DNA of 32,615 nt from assembly GCA_945870035.1 (NCBI GenBank), contig CAMBQQ010000041.1, forward strand, positions 1-32,615. Reading direction: 5' to 3'. This stretch comes from Rhizobium sp. Q54. Lineage in GTDB: Bacteria > Pseudomonadota > Alphaproteobacteria > Rhizobiales > Xanthobacteraceae. The position numbers were made by a program, and so were the translations under genes. Each line of letters starts with the position of its first letter. Positions within the stretch are counted from its first letter, which is position 1. A model generated the notes under the pieces. It was not told the origin of the DNA and did not search any database. It saw only the letters and a list, made by a program, of their open reading frames with translations. Shown piece after piece: positions 1-17,864 of the stretch.

Positions 1-46
1 AATATTCCGCAACGAACAGTGCCTGCTTGGGCGTCAAATCATTCAT
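1..46 (-). CDS. Terminase small subunit, N-terminus only (runs off left edge)
   Basis: Reading leftward from the ATG at 46-44, 15 codons give MNDLTPKQALFVAEY before the window ends. LTPKQ followed by FV.EY is the characteristic opening of the Terminase_2 small-subunit family, where it precedes a DNA-binding HTH. The small terminase recognises the phage packaging site and recruits the large terminase. In phage satellites a private TerS redirects helper-phage packaging to the satellite genome. I see no strong Shine-Dalgarno sequence before the ATG. Only 15 residues support the call, so it depends on motif memory, and the rest of the gene is outside the window. Confidence 0.6.
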   Translation of the reverse strand, partial: MNDLTPKQALFVAEY

Positions 47-251
47 GCGCGAACAATATCAGCTAATGGTATCGGCGTTCTACCGACCAACAATTACCAA
101 CATCGACGCTTCGGCAGAGTGTTTTGGACAGGCGAATTTCAGCGCGCCCATCATGCTGGGCTCTAACCGGCAGAGGTCGAGGGCTTCTCACTTCTGCGCG
201 CAACATTGCCTCATTCTCGGGCGGATTGTTGCGCATATCACAACGGCGATC

Positions 252-374
252 TGGTACGCGGTGGAACGCGATCCACTTCACTGTATTCAATATTTTATAT
301 TATATCCCCGCTTATATACCCACCTATACTTTTTCACACATGCAATGGTGGGGACCGCGTTCCACCGCGTACCA
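252..374. other. Candidate replication origin: 19-bp inverted repeat around an AT-rich core
   Basis: Positions 252-270 (tggtacgcggtggaacgcg) and 356-374 are a perfect 19-bp inverted repeat enclosing 85 bp. The part at about 283-340 is very AT-rich (runs such as tattttatattatat), unlike the rest of the window. Within the right arm the hexamer ccgcgt occurs at 355-360 and 365-370, exactly 10 bp apart. The left arm carries its complement acgcgg at 256-261 and the near-match acgcga at 266-271. Short iterons at one helical turn flanking a melting region, next to a primase-helicase gene, is how SaPI-type and P4-type origins are built. The functional role is inferred. A recombination or regulatory site is the alternative. 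Confidence 0.45.
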
Positions 375-390
375 AGATAAAAATGCTGAC

Positions 391-423
391 AAAAAAAGGC
401 CGCTCATTATGTGAGCGGCCTTT
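391..423 (-). terminator. Rho-independent terminator of the primase gene
   Basis: A perfect 12-bp stem (aaaggccgctca at 395-406, its complement at 412-423) closes a 5-base loop. On the minus strand it is followed by a run of seven T (391-397 read in reverse, partly in the stem). It begins 17 bp after the primase stop codon and separates that gene from the candidate origin and the terS-like gene. The symmetric stem could also work on the plus strand. Confidence 0.85.
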
Positions 424-439
424 GGTCGATCAATGTCGC

Positions 440-2044
440 TTAGAATTCAGACGGGCAATTCTTCAAAGCGATCCCCTCATAGTATCTCTCCCTGCCGCCA
501 TCTGTGCGGGGGTGGCTCATCTTGAGCCCGGCCACGGCTGATCGAAGGTCCCGACCGAAGGTCTGCTTTGATCCTGCCGTGCTTCGACCATTAGCCGCAC
601 ACCACTCGACCCATTCGCGATACAAGGCCATTGGCGCGACCTGTCCGCCTGGCGCGACGGTGCACTTCTCTTTCAGGAACGTCGTGATAGGCGATCCCAA
701 CTCGGCAAGTTCGCTTACTGCATCCTGGGCGCTGTCGGGTTGTGTGAAATATCCGCGCTCACGCAATCTACGATAGCCATCCAATGCCCAGTTAAGAATA
801 CCACTAAGCTCACCGATTAGGCGTTTGCCAAGGCCACGATCCTCTTTGCCGTAAAAACTTTGACACATGGTCAGCACGACAAAACGAGACGCAAGCGCAC
901 CAGATGCATCGGCGATACGTGGAATCTCGTTCGTGAAGATGAGAAACCGCGCACCCAACCTGCCTGTCCATGCACTCTGAAACTTGCGGTCAATCGTGAG
1001 GGCGTCCTCTCCTGAGATAGAAAGCAGCCGTTCGGCTATTGCCGCCTGATCCGCCTTGGCACTAAGCCGGGCATCACTAATGATCGCGAGGGACTTCCCG
1101 ATAAGCGGAGCTATACCGAAGTTCATTGCGAGGCTCGCTAGTGTCGGCTGGGCCACGCTGCTTTGTCCCAGCAAGGCGGTTAGGACCCGAGCGATCGTAC
1201 CCTTGCCACTGCGCTTAGGGCCCACAATTAGCCCGATCTTTTGCTGCGACGTGTCGGGCGAGAGCAGATAACCGAACAGGTCTTGAAGCGCCTCAATGGA
1301 TTGCGGATCGTCAGGCCAAACCTGGCCGAGAAATTTCAGCCATTTGGTTGGCTCGGGCGCGTCAGGATCGTAAGCCACGCCAGAAGCGTTGAGGCCGAAG
1401 TATGCTGGCGTGGCCGGGTGCAGATCGCCGCTTGCAAGATGGAGAAGGCCGTTGCTGACCGCCAAGAATTCGTCGGCAGGCGGCATATCTCTGCTGTCGG
1501 CCAGCCATACTGGCGCTTCAATGACGGCGGGTAAATTCGATGCCGCCGCAAGAGCCGAAAACACATCCCCAACGCGAGCGCGGGTCGGCTGAAATGGCTT
1601 CGTTTCTTCCTTTGTCGCATGCAGCGACCATTCGAGGAACCGCCAGATTTCAGCATTCACCGCGTCTTGGTCAACGTGCTCGTAGCAAGCGCCGTTCCAC
1701 GAATAAAACCCGCCGCGATAGTGGTGCATCGTGACAATGTTGCCGATGGTATAACTGTCTGCAATCAAAGCTCGCGCCGATGGCATGGGATCGCGGCGGT
1801 CCAAAATCAAGGACCGGCGTGGCTCCGTCGCGGCGGCTTCGATTGCCGTGCGCGGCATCGTCTTCGACGGCCCGGCAAGCGGTGCCGCGTGAGCTTCCGG
1901 CGTAGGCGGCACCCACGGCTTGACCGTCGCGCGCATGAACCCTTCGATGTCTTCGATGGTCCAACCGTCGCGGATCGCGTCAGCGCAATCCCACCCCTTC
2001 GGCGGCACGTCGCCGTTCTGGAAATCTTGAAATGAATAGGTCAC
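440..2044 (-). CDS. P4/D5-family primase-helicase (phage replication protein)
   Basis: A 534-residue protein of the phage/plasmid primase P4 C-terminal family. The D5_N-like region spans about residues 95-240. A superfamily 3 helicase core follows: Walker A GPKRSGKGT at 275-283, Walker B-like SLAIISDARL at 318-327, motif C RFLIFTNEIPRIAD at 366-379 and an arginine finger candidate at R387. The N-terminal 90 residues show no TOPRIM or zinc primase motif, so this is probably the helicase/origin-binding part, shorter than the 770-residue P4 alpha protein. The start is GTG at 2044, overlapping the upstream stop in a GTGA junction, which indicates translational coupling. It probably opens the AT-rich segment at 252-374 for island replication. 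A terminator follows the gene. Confidence 0.88.
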   Translation of the reverse strand: MTYSFQDFQNGDVPPKGWDCADAIRDGWTIEDIEGFMRATVKPWVPPTPEAHAAPLAGPSKTMPRTAIEAAATEPRRSLILDRRDPMPSARALIADSYTIGNIVTMHHYRGGFYSWNGACYEHVDQDAVNAEIWRFLEWSLHATKEETKPFQPTRARVGDVFSALAAASNLPAVIEAPVWLADSRDMPPADEFLAVSNGLLHLASGDLHPATPAYFGLNASGVAYDPDAPEPTKWLKFLGQVWPDDPQSIEALQDLFGYLLSPDTSQQKIGLIVGPKRSGKGTIARVLTALLGQSSVAQPTLASLAMNFGIAPLIGKSLAIISDARLSAKADQAAIAERLLSISGEDALTIDRKFQSAWTGRLGARFLIFTNEIPRIADASGALASRFVVLTMCQSFYGKEDRGLGKRLIGELSGILNWALDGYRRLRERGYFTQPDSAQDAVSELAELGSPITTFLKEKCTVAPGGQVAPMALYREWVEWCAANGRSTAGSKQTFGRDLRSAVAGLKMSHPRTDGGRERYYEGIALKNCPSEF

Positions 2045-2247
2045 TTGGCCAGAACCTTGCGGACTTGCGAACGGAGATTGAGGTCATCGCGGCGCACCGC
2101 GTTGTCGATATCGCTGAAAGTCGCGGTGCAGGAGATAGTCACCTGCTCCGCGTAGCTCTTAGAGTTGTCCAGCTTCGGGGCAACGGCCCCGCGGCGCGGA
2201 AACTGGAGCACATTCGAAACCGCTTCGTCTGAAAGGTCGTCGGTCAT
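2041..2247 (-). CDS. Small island protein of unknown function
   Basis: I do not recognise this 68-residue protein (begins MTDDLSDEAVSNVLQFPRRG). A longer reading from 2301 exists, but the ATG at 2247-2245 overlaps the upstream stop by one base (TAATG), and the gene ends in a 4-base GTGA overlap with the primase gene. This start therefore makes a tight coupled three-gene array. The protein is hydrophilic with an acidic N-terminus and a basic C-terminus (RSQVRKVLAK), and has no membrane segment or clear domain. Its position just before a primase-helicase suggests a replication accessory role, which is inference only. Confidence 0.6.
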   Translation of the reverse strand: MTDDLSDEAVSNVLQFPRRGAVAPKLDNSKSYAEQVTISCTATFSDIDNAVRRDDLNLRSQVRKVLAK

Positions 2248-2624
2248 TAAATGTCGCCCCCGACGAAAAAACGATTTTCGATGCGCGCGACGTATGCGCA
2301 CACGCGCGCGATGTAGTTCACATGATTTTGGAGCATTTCGCCCATCACACCGCCCGCGCCAGCGAACACGTGGTACGGCACTTGCGGCAGACTGAGATCG
2401 GCCTCAGGAAGTGCCAGCTGGTGCGTGAGGCGAACGAGAACCGGCTCGATCTTGGACAATCGCGATCGTTCTTTCAAAAGTCTTCCGTATTCGACCTCAG
2501 TCAACCCGCCAGCGTCCAGCAGATTGCGGATGCGCAGGTCGAGCGCGTCTATAATTGGATGGTCGAGTGGGAAGCGGACCTTATGCCTGCCCTGAGAGGG
2601 TTTTTGATCTTGATGTTGTTGCAT
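2247..2624 (-). CDS. Unknown island protein, 125 residues
   Basis: This family is not one I recognise. The protein is 125 residues, with a charged N-terminus (MQQHQDQKPSQGRHK), a predicted helical middle rich in Leu/Glu/Arg at about residues 25-75, and a C-terminal part with a short glycine/alanine run (VFAGAGGVMGEM) followed by Tyr/Val-rich sequence. It lacks a signal peptide or membrane segment. It starts at the ATG at 2624, preceded by a weak AAAGG, and its stop overlaps the next gene by one base. It is the first gene after alpA in the replication array and is probably cotranscribed with the primase gene. Confidence 0.6.
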   Translation of the reverse strand: MQQHQDQKPSQGRHKVRFPLDHPIIDALDLRIRNLLDAGGLTEVEYGRLLKERSRLSKIEPVLVRLTHQLALPEADLSLPQVPYHVFAGAGGVMGEMLQNHVNYIARVCAYVARIENRFFVGGDI

Positions 2625-2761
2625 TGGTGGTGCCTTTGAGCTTGCATCGGCGGCACCCTGTTGCTAAAAACACAACGCCAATCGCGTTATAGCAATCAAA
2701 TCGCCGCCCGGTTTCAGAAATGGAGCCGGGCGCGTTCTTTTGCGCACCGGTTCGGCGGGTG

Positions 2762-2965
2762 TCAGTCGGCGGCTTTTTTCGGTTTGTACGCGGACATGGC
2801 ATCAATGAAGGCGGTCAGGTCCGCGCGCTTCACGAACGTCCTTCGCCCGGATTTTACTGCGGCAAGTTTTCCGTCGCGCAGGAAGCGATAAATGCTCGCT
2901 CTGCAACGTCCTGTCTGCTGCGTCACTTCATCGATACTGAAAAGCGGTTTGTCGATCATTGTCAT
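2762..2965 (-). CDS. AlpA/excisionase-like helix-turn-helix DNA-binding protein
   Basis: A 67-residue protein whose core (LFSIDEVTQQTGRCRASIYRF at about 8-28, then DGKLAAVKSGRRTFVKRADL) is the winged HTH_17/excisionase fold of AlpA, Xis and MerR-like regulators. The ATG at 2965 (or the next in-frame ATG at 2959) is chosen because GGAG stands 4 or 10 bases upstream. The longer reading from 3121 would run back through the end of int and has no family match. AlpA proteins activate integrase expression, or act as directionality factors for excision. The tandem 23-bp repeat just upstream (3056-3101) is a plausible binding site. It is separated from int by about 118 bp and has the same orientation. 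Confidence 0.8.
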   Translation of the reverse strand: MTMIDKPLFSIDEVTQQTGRCRASIYRFLRDGKLAAVKSGRRTFVKRADLTAFIDAMSAYKPKKAAD

Positions 2966-3055
2966 CGGTCTCCGTTGCGATGACCGACCAATTAAACCCC
3001 GAAAGGTATTGGCGTCGAACACATAGGTACAGAAATATACGCATGAACGTCTACA

Positions 3056-3101
3056 GTCGCTTATTTGCTTTACGTAGTGTCGCTTATTTGCTTTGCGTAA
3101 T
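3056..3101. repeat. Two tandem 23-bp repeats at the int/alpA junction
   Basis: Units 3056-3078 and 3079-3101 match at 21 of 23 positions. Both start gtcgcttatttgcttt. The second copy covers the last codons and stop of int, the first lies in the int-alpA gap. They read CAAATA on the minus strand, a core that also occurs in the 10-bp repeats before int (4458-4478), there on the plus strand. Arm-type integrase or Xis binding sites typically look like this. That function is inferred. Confidence 0.6.
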
Positions 3102-4445
3102 CGGGATGATGTTCCCTCCATCCTGCGGGACTAGCGGCATAACGGCGGCGGCAGCCATGTCGCCAAGCCCGTCCGCGATCCAGTGGCCATAATGCCGTTC
3201 GATCATCGCGACCGATGTATCGTGTAGGGCAGCTACTAACCGAATGGGCAAGTTCGCCCGGATCCCGCGCACAATCGAACTGTGGCGCAATGCGTAAGGG
3301 ATCACAGATGGCATCCCTGCTCGCTCCCGGATTAACCGCCAAGGCCGCGTCAATTCGCCCGCCGCCATCCATTGACCGCGCCCGGCTCGCTGCCACTGAA
3401 TGCCTCCAGCAACTTGTTCGTGACGCCACCGCTCAAGCAACGCCGCGTCTTTTGCGCGCCCGGTCGCAGCCGGTAAAAGCGCATCGAGCACGTCGACCCC
3501 GACCGGCACGGGAGCGTGGCTGGTCTTCCCTTCCCGGCCCTTACGGGACGCAGGAACCATGATTCGCGCCTGCTCTCGCTGTAAGTCGCCGACGCGAGCG
3601 CGCGCGGCCTGGGAGAAACGCGCGCCCGTGGCCGCGAGAACAACGACAACACGAAATAGATCGCCGTCCCATTTTTCCTCCGCGTCGACCTCTCGCGCCG
3701 CCATCAGCAGTTTGCCGACCTGGGCATCCGTCAGAATTTGGTTCTCGCGCGCCAGCGGCGCGGCTTCGTCTTGCTCACTCGCCGTTGCTTTCAGGCCAGC
3801 CTTGATGATGGCAGGCAGGACAGCCGGCAGGCGGTCGCGGTGCGCGGCGTGGGCGCGGTTCAGCGCGGCCTTTAGATCGTTGACGAGGCGCTGCTTAGTC
3901 GCGGCCTTCATCGTTTCGGGCAGGCTGGAAACCCACTCACTCAGATCGCGTTCGCACAGGGTATGCAACGCCACCTTTGCCAGCGCCGCCGCCTCGGTGC
4001 CCGCTCGCTTCCCACGCTTGTCATTGCCGAGAACGTACCGGCAGAGACGCTGGCTGGCGTCCGAGCGCACCTGCCGGGCTTTCCTGCGGCTGTCGCGCGC
4101 ATCGCGCCTCGAAATATATTCTTCCACCGCAGGTCTGACAGTGAGTAACGGTCCTTCGGCGGTCGCCTTGGCCTCCGCACGTGCGGCCTCAACCGTCATC
4201 CGCGATACGCGGATAGCGGCATTAAAATCCAGCGTGCCTTCGCGCAATTCATCATCGGCGGTGCCGATGGGCGTCTGCCGATATCCCGCGCCGTTGCGCC
4301 AGCGCACAAGCCACACGCCACCGCGCCGCCCCTTTCGATAACCGAGATGAACGTCCGGATCGACGCCGCGCCAGTGTAGACCGGCTCCAAGCTTTGCTCT
4401 TGCGGCCCTGGTTGTGATCGCGGCTTCGCTTAGGACTTTGGTCAT
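3084..4445 (-). CDS. int: Site-specific tyrosine recombinase (integrase)
   Basis: A 453-residue phage integrase. The N-terminal part (about 20-100) is a basic arm-binding-like region. A core-binding SAM-like domain lies at about 102-215, and the catalytic domain at about 235-425. Catalytic residues visible are R277 (TGARFSQ), a lysine candidate near 302-307 (KGREGK), R387 (ALRH), H408 (LHDTS) and the nucleophile Y419 (ERHYGHW). The first histidine of the usual HxxR box is tyrosine (YALR), a known variant. The gene reads away from the att site, 137 bp from the tRNA-Glu fragment it presumably targets. The ATG at 4445 is used. Direct repeats (ccgtcaaata) just upstream suggest control or arm binding at its promoter. 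Confidence 0.95.
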   Translation of the reverse strand: MTKVLSEAAITTRAARAKLGAGLHWRGVDPDVHLGYRKGRRGGVWLVRWRNGAGYRQTPIGTADDELREGTLDFNAAIRVSRMTVEAARAEAKATAEGPLLTVRPAVEEYISRRDARDSRRKARQVRSDASQRLCRYVLGNDKRGKRAGTEAAALAKVALHTLCERDLSEWVSSLPETMKAATKQRLVNDLKAALNRAHAAHRDRLPAVLPAIIKAGLKATASEQDEAAPLARENQILTDAQVGKLLMAAREVDAEEKWDGDLFRVVVVLAATGARFSQAARARVGDLQREQARIMVPASRKGREGKTSHAPVPVGVDVLDALLPAATGRAKDAALLERWRHEQVAGGIQWQRAGRGQWMAAGELTRPWRLIRERAGMPSVIPYALRHSSIVRGIRANLPIRLVAALHDTSVAMIERHYGHWIADGLGDMAAAAVMPLVPQDGGNIIPITQSK

Positions 4446-4457
4446 GGCATCCCCAAA

Positions 4458-4478
4458 CCGTCAAATATCCGTCAAATA
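4458..4478. repeat. Direct 10-bp repeats in the integrase promoter region
   Basis: ccgtcaaata occurs at 4458-4467 and again at 4469-4478, spaced 11 bp, immediately upstream of the int ATG. On the minus strand each gives TATTTGACGG, so TTGACG could also be a -35 box. A regulator or integrase-arm site is inferred. The spacing of one helical turn favours protein binding. Confidence 0.45.
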
Positions 4479-4582
4479 AACACCTGTGTACGCTCATATC
4501 CATTAGTACAACAATTCTGCATAAGCCATTGATTTTATTAGACACGCATAGACGCCGGTAGACCGGCGGGGGCTGCAAGTCA

Positions 4583-4630
4583 CGCCCTTTCACGGCGGTA
4601 ACAGGGGTTCGAATCCCCTAGGGCGCGCCA
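4583..4630 (+). other. attR: 3' fragment of tRNA-Glu(TTC), integration site
   Basis: The 48 bases contain the anticodon stem-loop (cgcc-ctTTCac-ggcg), variable loop, T-arm (aggggttcgaatcccct), acceptor strand agggcgc, discriminator g and encoded CCA, matching alphaproteobacterial tRNA-Glu. The sequence upstream has no D-arm and no gcgccct acceptor strand, so the tRNA is truncated at the anticodon stem: a base just before it breaks pairing. This is the usual crossover region for tRNA-targeting integrases. The intact tRNA-Glu should lie at the other island end, outside the window. Confidence 0.85.
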
Positions 4631-16898: not shown

Positions 16899-17864
16899 AT
16901 GAAACATGTCCACCGTATCGCAGGCTTCGCGGCGATTGCCGCGGTTACGCTCGCAAGCCCCGCCAGCGCCGACGACCTCGTCAAGATGACCATCGGCCAG
17001 CGCGGCAACTGGGACACCGCCGTGCCGCACCTCGGCGAAAAGGCCGGAATCTTCGAAAAGCACGGCATCAAACTGGAGATGGTCTATACCCGCGGCAGCG
17101 GCGAGACCGTGCAGCCGGTGATCTCCGGCAATGTCGATCTCGGCATCGCGGTCGGCACGTTAGGCGCCATCGGCTACTTCGCCAAGGGTGCGCCGATCCG
17201 TATCGTCGGCGCCGAAGCCACCGGCGCCGCCGACTACTGGTATGCCAAGAACCCGGCCATCAAATCGCTGAAGGACCCGGCGCAGTCGAAGGGCAAGTCG
17301 ATTGCGTTTTCAACCAACGGCTCCTCGACCGACTCGATGGTCAAGGCCTTCATCAAGGAATGGAAACTTGACGTGAAGCCGGTGGCGACCGGCGGCCCGC
17401 CGGCCACCTTGACCAGCGTGATGAGCGACCAGGTCGATATCGGCTGGGCGGCGCCGCCCTTCGGCCTGAAGGAAATCGATGAAGGCAAGATCCATCTGGT
17501 TGCGCGCGGTGGCGATACCAAGATCATCGGTGGCCAGACCATCCGGGTCATCATCGCCAATACCGATGCGCTGAAAAACCGGGCCGACGTGCTTAAGCGC
17601 TATTTCAAGGCGTACCGCGAGACCATCGACTATATGTATTCGGACAATCCGAAAGTGATTGCGGACTATGCCGAATTCGCCAAGATCACACCGGCCCTGG
17701 CCAAGCGGGTGCGCGACGAGTTCTTCCCGAAGTCGATCCTGCAACTGACCGAGATCAAGGGCCTCGACGACATGCTCAAGGACTCGGTCGAGCTGAAATA
17801 TGCGCCGAAGGTGCTTAGCGCGGCCGAGGTCAAGGAACTGATCCAGACCGATATCGCCAAATAG
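16899..17864 (+). CDS. Periplasmic substrate-binding protein of the NitT/TauT ABC transporter
   Basis: A 321-residue type 2 periplasmic binding protein of the NMT1/THI5/SsuA-like family. The signal peptide covers about 1-25 (HRIAGFAAIAAVTLASPASA). The family features are GEKAGIFEKHGIKLE near 45-60 and a GSGETVQPVISGNVDLGI pocket segment. A perfect AGGAGGT precedes the ATG by seven bases, suggesting higher expression than the membrane parts, as is normal for binding proteins. It closes the transporter operon. The ligand is unknown: aromatic or other organic anions and sulfonates are candidates. Confidence 0.93.
   Translation: MKHVHRIAGFAAIAAVTLASPASADDLVKMTIGQRGNWDTAVPHLGEKAGIFEKHGIKLEMVYTRGSGETVQPVISGNVDLGIAVGTLGAIGYFAKGAPIRIVGAEATGAADYWYAKNPAIKSLKDPAQSKGKSIAFSTNGSSTDSMVKAFIKEWKLDVKPVATGGPPATLTSVMSDQVDIGWAAPPFGLKEIDEGKIHLVARGGDTKIIGGQTIRVIIANTDALKNRADVLKRYFKAYRETIDYMYSDNPKVIADYAEFAKITPALAKRVRDEFFPKSILQLTEIKGLDDMLKDSVELKYAPKVLSAAEVKELIQTDIAK

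Follow-up and report, generated by a model that had tools for sequence, protein, structure and literature searches.

Integrase end of a probable phage satellite in a tRNA-Glu gene of Rhizobium sp. Q54 and the podovirus-type ejection proteins of its relatives

The window analysed here, a stretch of 32,615 nucleotides from Rhizobium sp. Q54, is the whole of contig CAMBQQ010000041.1 (G000:C41 among our own labels, in which G numbers stand for genomes, C for contigs and L for loci), and its first 4630 nucleotides appear to be one end of an island resembling the phage-inducible chromosomal islands (PICIs). All genes between 1 and 4630 lie on the minus strand, namely a tyrosine integrase, an HTH_17 (helix-turn-helix) regulator, two small open reading frames (ORFs), a replication protein (Rep) and the start of a small terminase subunit (TerS). 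The initial annotation had listed these genes together with an origin, and each of them was found at the place given for it. Position 1 is an assembly end, and since the window is a complete contig, its extension to the left is impossible. The features of the island and its attachment (att) site are the following (aa, amino acids):

1..46, minus strand: first 15 codons of a putative small terminase (Terminase_2-like), MNDLTPKQALFVAEY, cut by the contig end
252..374, no strand: candidate origin, two 9-bp iterons per arm (TGGTACGCG, TGGAACGCG) mirrored about a 66% AT core
395..423, minus strand: terminator-like hairpin (12-bp exact arms) and T run on the Rep strand, between Rep and origin
440..2044, minus strand: Rep, helicase-type replication protein with D5_N and DUF5906, 534 aa
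2041..2247, minus strand: small ORF, 68 aa
2247..2624, minus strand: small ORF, 125 aa, its stop overlapping the start of the 2041-2247 ORF
2762..2959, minus strand: HTH_17 regulator, AlpA/excisionase-like, 65-66 aa
3056..3099, no strand: two 21-bp direct repeats, 95% alike and 23 bp apart, that overlap the 3' end of the integrase gene and precede the HTH gene
3084..4445, minus strand: tyrosine integrase, 453 aa
4583..4630, plus strand: 3' end of tRNA-Glu(UUC), att copy at the integrase end, chromosome to the right

The integrase is recognised by a PHROG integrase family (E 1.1e-18), its Pfam Phage_integrase score of 26.9 bits being slightly below the cut-off of 27.1. The regulator had been called AlpA-like, which holds at the level of HTH_17 (39 bits, cut-off 27) but not of Phage_AlpA (17.1 bits, under the cut-off of 21); it also matches a PHROG excisionase/regulator family (E 2.8e-7) and has a homologue in G439, i.e., Hyphomicrobium sp. 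CS1BSMeth3 (E 2.1e-10). The 21-bp direct repeats are possible binding sites for the regulator or an excisionase. Neither small ORF has a Pfam or PHROG match; the 125-aa one shows a weak homologue in G439 (E 3.3e-4) and the 68-aa one a homologue in G009, which is Rhodopseudomonas sp. RI_341 (E 1.2e-8). The 'P4-type primase-helicase' of the initial annotation is retained for its helicase domains, since D5_N and DUF5906 both score above cut-off, and not for the primase: the best PHROG match of Rep (phrog_6088, E 5.4e-73) is confined to profile positions 348-765 of 772, and therefore no primase domain is detected. A Walker A motif (GPKRSGKGT) was read by eye, a C-terminal winged-helix match stays sub-threshold, and the PDB search returned one match, the DNA primase 7ola (E 1.7e-9). 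P4-like satellites carry the genes psu, delta and sid and an alpha protein with primase and helicase; none of the psu, delta and sid families is among the Pfam and PHROG matches of the window, in which one half of the island is visible.

The 48 bp of tRNA-Glu at 4583-4630 recur unchanged in 18 of the other 42 genus-sample genomes, and the tRNA 3' end matches G041 over 49 bp without a difference, the tRNA gene of G041 being intact and followed ~0.4 kb further by a kamA-like gene. Because of the shared 48 bp and the intact tRNA in G041, the window is read as holding the integrase-side end of an island inserted in tRNA-Glu(UUC), and one PICI feature, an integrase with a specific attachment site, is present in the form of the integrase and the 48-bp tRNA-Glu 3' end. 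A second att copy (42-bp att stretch, up to 3 mismatches) and a Terminase_2 protein (profile search) were both looked for in the assembly, which is 91% complete, and not found, so that the far half of the island is apparently missing from it; the two ejection proteins of G009 described below gave no match in this genome either. The tRNA-Glu match on contig C92 was considered as the other island end and rejected, as it is an intact gene with a CTC anticodon followed by ordinary-looking genes. In seven further genomes (G001, G002, G007, G012, G014, G025 and G042), ~4-19 kb separate the tRNA 3' end from the kamA-like gene, as against 0.4 kb in G041, which suggests that the site may receive other insertions; that of G042, the one read among the seven, gave no match to our reference set.

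The nature of the island is best approached through its relatives. Rep was searched in 43 genomes of the genus, 397 of the order and 391 of the family (counts that include the window's own genome), as well as in the genome_contigs collection, and matches were obtained in 8 genus, 7 order (E <= 1e-40) and 11 family genomes (E <= 1e-60) and at two loci of the collection. Six other genomes, our near relatives, carry Rep at 59-76% identity (G009, G369, G413, G439, G540 and G584), and a TerS-type gene directly follows Rep in all six. Moreover, in G009, G369, G413 and G439, the TerS gene after Rep is the single match of the genome to the Terminase_2 profile. The reading of 1-46 as TerS rests on the appearance of the sequence and on TerS at the same place in these six relatives.

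Five of the six islands could be read to their far ends. They measure ~15.8 kb at tRNA-Gln (G369), 16,256 bp (16.26 kb) between 28-bp repeats, 96% identical, within a coding gene that we take to be comM (G413), ~16.7 kb at 14 bp of tRNA-Leu provided that two contigs abut (G009), 17.2 kb between repeats of 14 bp of tRNA-Ser (G439) and 17.2 kb at 14 bp of tRNA-Ala (G540), while G584 is a 3.3-kb contig with the island ends outside and a size that cannot be measured. No large terminase, portal, major capsid or tail-tube protein was recognised in the five readable islands by Pfam and PHROG scans, which covered most of the larger proteins and not every small ORF. Since these five relatives are 15.8-17.2 kb long and without a recognised large terminase, portal or major capsid, we read the element as a satellite and not as a prophage; with a probability of roughly 0.82, the window holds the integrase-proximal half of a PICI-like phage satellite at tRNA-Glu(UUC). 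The initial annotation, which had proposed a phage satellite of about 8-18 kb with few or no capsid genes, is well supported through the relatives, all five of which fit this size and lack a recognised capsid gene, although four of them carry internal virion proteins and the assembly lacks the far half of the window's island. The opposite outcome, an island longer than 30 kb with a full structural gene set, was seen in none of the five.

An ordinary temperate phage, of which the window would show the early end with the structural genes past the contig end, would account for the same visible genes, since an integrase, a regulator, a replication gene and a TerS occur in full phages too, phages with similar Reps are numerous (1110 records, all below 60% identity) and the far half of the island is unseen. 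However, the five near relatives that could be read to the far end include no full prophage, and no structural genes follow Rep, origin and TerS in them, whereas the plan of Pseudomonas phage UFJF_PfDIW6 is TerS followed by the large terminase and the portal; we thus regard this alternative as improbable.

Beyond the near relatives, distant Reps (26-44% identity) in G030, G057, G277, G184, G429 (two loci), G731 and G509 are found without TerS or ejection genes by BLAST against the reference set, in a check that left out G737, G001, G652, G674, G025, G022, G013 and G028 as well as the second Rep loci of G009 and of the window's own genome. The latter (G000:C17:3235-4269) is a distant Rep-like match of 23% identity. 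In G277 and G184 (L067 and L068), islands with a distant Rep (31-36%) lie near tRNA-Ser genes, and each encodes a ~630-aa protein with a similar beginning, possibly another satellite type. IMG/VR scans with Rep and with a 1254-aa ejection-type protein confirmed no relative.

A second PICI feature, a replication gene followed by an origin, is present as well, with an iteron origin directly downstream of the Rep helicase. The arms of the window's candidate origin are exact 19-bp inverted repeats, each with two 9-bp iterons ten bases apart. The iteron sequence varies between islands (TGAGGCGCG in G540, TGATGCGCG in G413 and TGGTCCGCG in G584) but is consistent among the copies of one island. A motif-free scan for two similar 9-mers with a period of 10, mirrored 45-115 bases away, returned a single cluster in each of five of the seven island loci (the window, G413, G540, G584 and G439), exclusively in the gap between Rep and TerS, and missed G009 and G369 with their less regular arms. 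The sole match in 23 other loci (444,643 bases) was a masked N stretch in L139, no such origin being found in the control loci L104, L105 and L111, which have a different replication gene of 724 aa, and L117 (G073); shuffled sequence gave no match in 102,615 bases. Plain arm scores are weaker, as the random windows of the same locus scoring as high were 2 of 200 for the window, 5, 9, 6 and 9 for the other four detected loci, 21 for G009 and 32 for G369. The origin cores are 53-70% AT, compared to 37-42% across the loci.

Four of the five readable near relatives encode ejection-type proteins (three pairs and one giant). In G009, G413 and G540, TerS and some small genes are followed by a pair of proteins of 882-971 aa and 1248-1256 aa. 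The smaller protein of G009 and of G540 contains a VanY peptidase domain, and the larger one gives matches to phrog_342 (internal virion protein with endolysin domain) as well as phrog_16310; the G413 pair is assigned by BLAST to the G009 pair (41% and 66% identity). G439 has instead an internal-virion-like giant of 2212 aa, a relative of which lies between 'structural lysozyme' and 'tail spike' in phage UFJF_PfDIW6. Three islands also hold a gene like PrtN, the pyocin activator, near the end opposite the integrase (L138:2578-2847, L064:4388-4657 and L127:10456-10752), the PHROGs name of the family being excisionase. At the edges of the G413 island (L064), proteins of the Fic/DOC and DUF3800 families (3049-3741 and 17111-17722) are possible cargo.

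Relatives of the 1250-aa protein occur in 19 of the 397 genomes of the order, and 16 stretches from 15 of the 19 were examined in addition to G413, with G105, G412 and G435 left out. The pair is located inside a prophage-like structural cluster in seven (G315, G358, G372, G385, G217, G339 and G334), of which G315 shows connector, major head, tail and tail-fibre proteins and G385 a large terminase by PHROGs, while the other five were classed via gene order and look-alike ORFs. G256 is prophage-like but less clear, and four stretches are ambiguous or cut by contig ends (G421, the second G302 stretch, G357 and G219). Integrase islands at tRNA-Thr with the ejection pair and the 724-aa replication protein were found in G388, G302 and G265 (L104, L105 and L111). 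Measured between 19-bp tRNA-Thr repeats, the G302 island spans 15.7 kb and the G265 island 14.9 kb, while for G388 no far end was located. No Terminase_2 match occurs on the contigs of these three islands, and their PHROG scans concerned two proteins, both from G302. Finally, G073 has at tRNA-Ser an island of 12.2 kb (L117:3094-15291) that encodes an integrase and an ejection pair.

The ratio of nonsynonymous to synonymous substitution rates (dN/dS) is 0.09 (G388/G302), 0.17 (G413/G540) and 0.18 (G413/G009) for the 1250-aa protein and 0.13 (G388/G302) and 0.28 (G388/G265) for the ~900-aa protein, and in the pairs compared (0.09-0.28) the satellite ejection genes are under purifying selection. 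In a tree of 20 ejection proteins, built with a quick method and no bootstrap and with some long terminal branches, six of the satellite copies cluster in a single clade separate from those of prophages (Shimodaira-Hasegawa-like approximate likelihood ratio test, 99), the islands concerned having two types of replication gene; the G073 copy falls with phages. A single origin of all seven satellite proteins is rejected (approximately unbiased test, p 8e-8), and we read the tree as suggesting one main capture retained in satellites and at least one more, that of G073 apparently being separate.

These data also bear on a decayed prophage remnant that would have kept the same genes, an idea to which one is led because islands with few phage genes are often remnants and because the ejection genes of prophages also sit at the end of the structural cluster. 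Such decay is very unlikely here, considering that ORFs of 880-1256 aa remain intact in several genera with the low dN/dS given above, that one compact layout with an att repeat at each end is found again at different tRNA genes and in one protein gene, and that iterons agree within an island while differing between islands. The least probable alternative, with only a slight chance, is another integrative island, e.g., a mobilizable element, that moves by conjugation and not in phage particles. Sets of helicase, integrase and HTH genes are indeed common on many islands, and in G369 a serine recombinase and O-antigen-ligase-like genes take the place of the ejection genes; nevertheless, TerS stands next to Rep in all six near relatives, four of the five readable ones have virion-type proteins, and no relaxase or conjugation family is among the general scan matches, no search aimed at relaxases having been made.

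Several observations weigh against the satellite interpretation or its extension to ejection genes. The size and content of the far half of the window's island, which lies outside the assembly, are unseen, and its 15 visible TerS residues are insufficient to score alone. G369, with a Rep of 65% identity among the closest, is without ejection genes, and its stretch L062:9849-16465 encodes in their position the serine recombinase together with a pair of O-antigen-ligase-like proteins, of which one exceeds the Pfam cut-off, a cargo that could alter the cell surface; its presumed integrase (491 aa, HxxR-type motif read by eye) and several other proteins have no family match in Pfam and PHROG scans. 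In G439, a 229-aa protein that has a G540 relative (38%) shows a weak match (E 3.4e-4) to phrog_458. The protein just ahead of the major head protein of the G315 prophage also matches this family (E 7e-11), and thus a head-assembly-related gene may be present. In addition, transfer in particles is a proposal, and no helper phage was identified by searching the major-head family phrog_247 in 11 genomes, of which one (G413) gave a match and the window's own genome gave none. The G413 prophage concerned looks long-tailed, as judged by gene order and not by family models, and since it is the sole match, a helper podovirus in the same genomes is unsupported. The best phage match of the G413 TerS (47%) is to UFJF_PfDIW6, and together with the relative of the G439 giant in this phage, it may point to temperate podovirus-type phages, as a lead only.

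To the right of the island, the chromosomal genes of the window (4662-32615), ten of which were scanned, include matches to a lysine-2,3-aminomutase-like protein, EpmA, a murein transglycosylase, SoxB and a TRAP transporter permease, as well as one protein matching SoxX and SoxA alike.

Compared with described satellites, the island of the window may belong with the PICIs, with the phage-inducible chromosomal minimalist islands (PICMIs) or in a separate lineage. Gram-negative PICIs, in the portion of Fillol-Salom et al. 2018 (PMC6092414) consulted, carry an integrase, an AlpA-type regulator, a replication gene followed by the origin and, in some, TerS; the island resembles them by genes in one direction and a specific attachment site, but its Rep is without a detected primase part, and in most near relatives there are also internal virion proteins of podovirus type, not listed in that portion of the PICI description. 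The text of that article contains no word starting with 'Rhizob'. The PICMI core, according to the sections of PMC10803314 at hand, is an integrase, AlpA and a DUF5906-type primase, searched with a model of HTH_17 and DUF5906 that derives from fis-integrated Vibrionaceae elements of reduced gene content. Indeed, the regulator and Rep of the window belong to these two families, whereas its site is tRNA-Glu and not fis, a TerS start comes after Rep, and the relatives lie mostly in tRNA genes, measure 15.8-17.2 kb and have TerS and large virion-type genes.

As for virion genes, EcCIMP1 is an E. coli PICI with the helper Kapi1, and the likeness drawn to it concerns transfer by a helper, there named EcoP; unlike the near relatives, it has no identifiable terminase gene, and a full-length ejection pair is not described for it in the extracts of PMC11773190 available. 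Ejection-type genes in satellites are nonetheless not wholly without precedent in the partial texts consulted. Satellites are described as redirecting packaging, altering the size of the head or building capsids of their own, the last being the case of the capsid-forming cf-PICIs (PMC11389934, in excerpt); the relatives' islands likewise hold part of a virion gene set, but this part consists of internal virion proteins only, with no recognised capsid, portal or tail gene. In podoviruses of the P22, T7 and N4 types, the ejection proteins are large, have peptidoglycan-cutting domains and are encoded by adjacent genes late in the structural cluster (PMC8954989 and others), like the adjacent large genes of the relatives, although there they belong to complete phages and here to islands without a recognised head or tail. 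Our literature search found no description of a satellite lineage with a full-length ejection pair and no paper joining phage satellites with internal virion proteins, and no alphaproteobacterial PICI-like satellite group turned up. The large satellite survey of de Sousa et al. may include such elements.

Taking the satellite interpretation, the HTH/AlpA-like protein and the integrase would excise the island once a helper phage is active, Rep would open the iteron origin and drive replication, and the satellite TerS would steer the large terminase of the helper to satellite DNA, which would then travel in helper heads. To judge by the closest relatives, large internal virion proteins of podovirus type are probably encoded in the half that is unseen. 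Incorporated into the particle made by the helper, they would form a channel across the next cell's envelope; the satellite would thus supply its own delivery machinery and the helper the head, portal and tail. More tentatively, at a little below even odds, the window may belong to a distinct Hyphomicrobiales satellite lineage with its own podovirus-type ejection machinery (a ~900-aa VanY-domain and a ~1250-aa internal virion protein) and the head, portal and tail of a helper.

The interest of this half-seen island lies in its group, which would be an alphaproteobacterial one of PICI-like satellites, and the paired inverted iterons between rep and terS provide an origin signature for finding more members. 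If the proposal is true, a satellite particle would consist of a helper shell carrying ejection proteins that the satellite made, and the satellite would control the entry to the next cell, e.g., which envelopes can be crossed; alternatively, it would mark its own particles and disarm the helper particles that take up foreign proteins. Altogether, such islands would allow the sharing of an ejectosome by two elements to be tested, and a recurrent lineage bringing only the proteins of DNA entry would make delivery, besides packaging, an arena of satellite competition.

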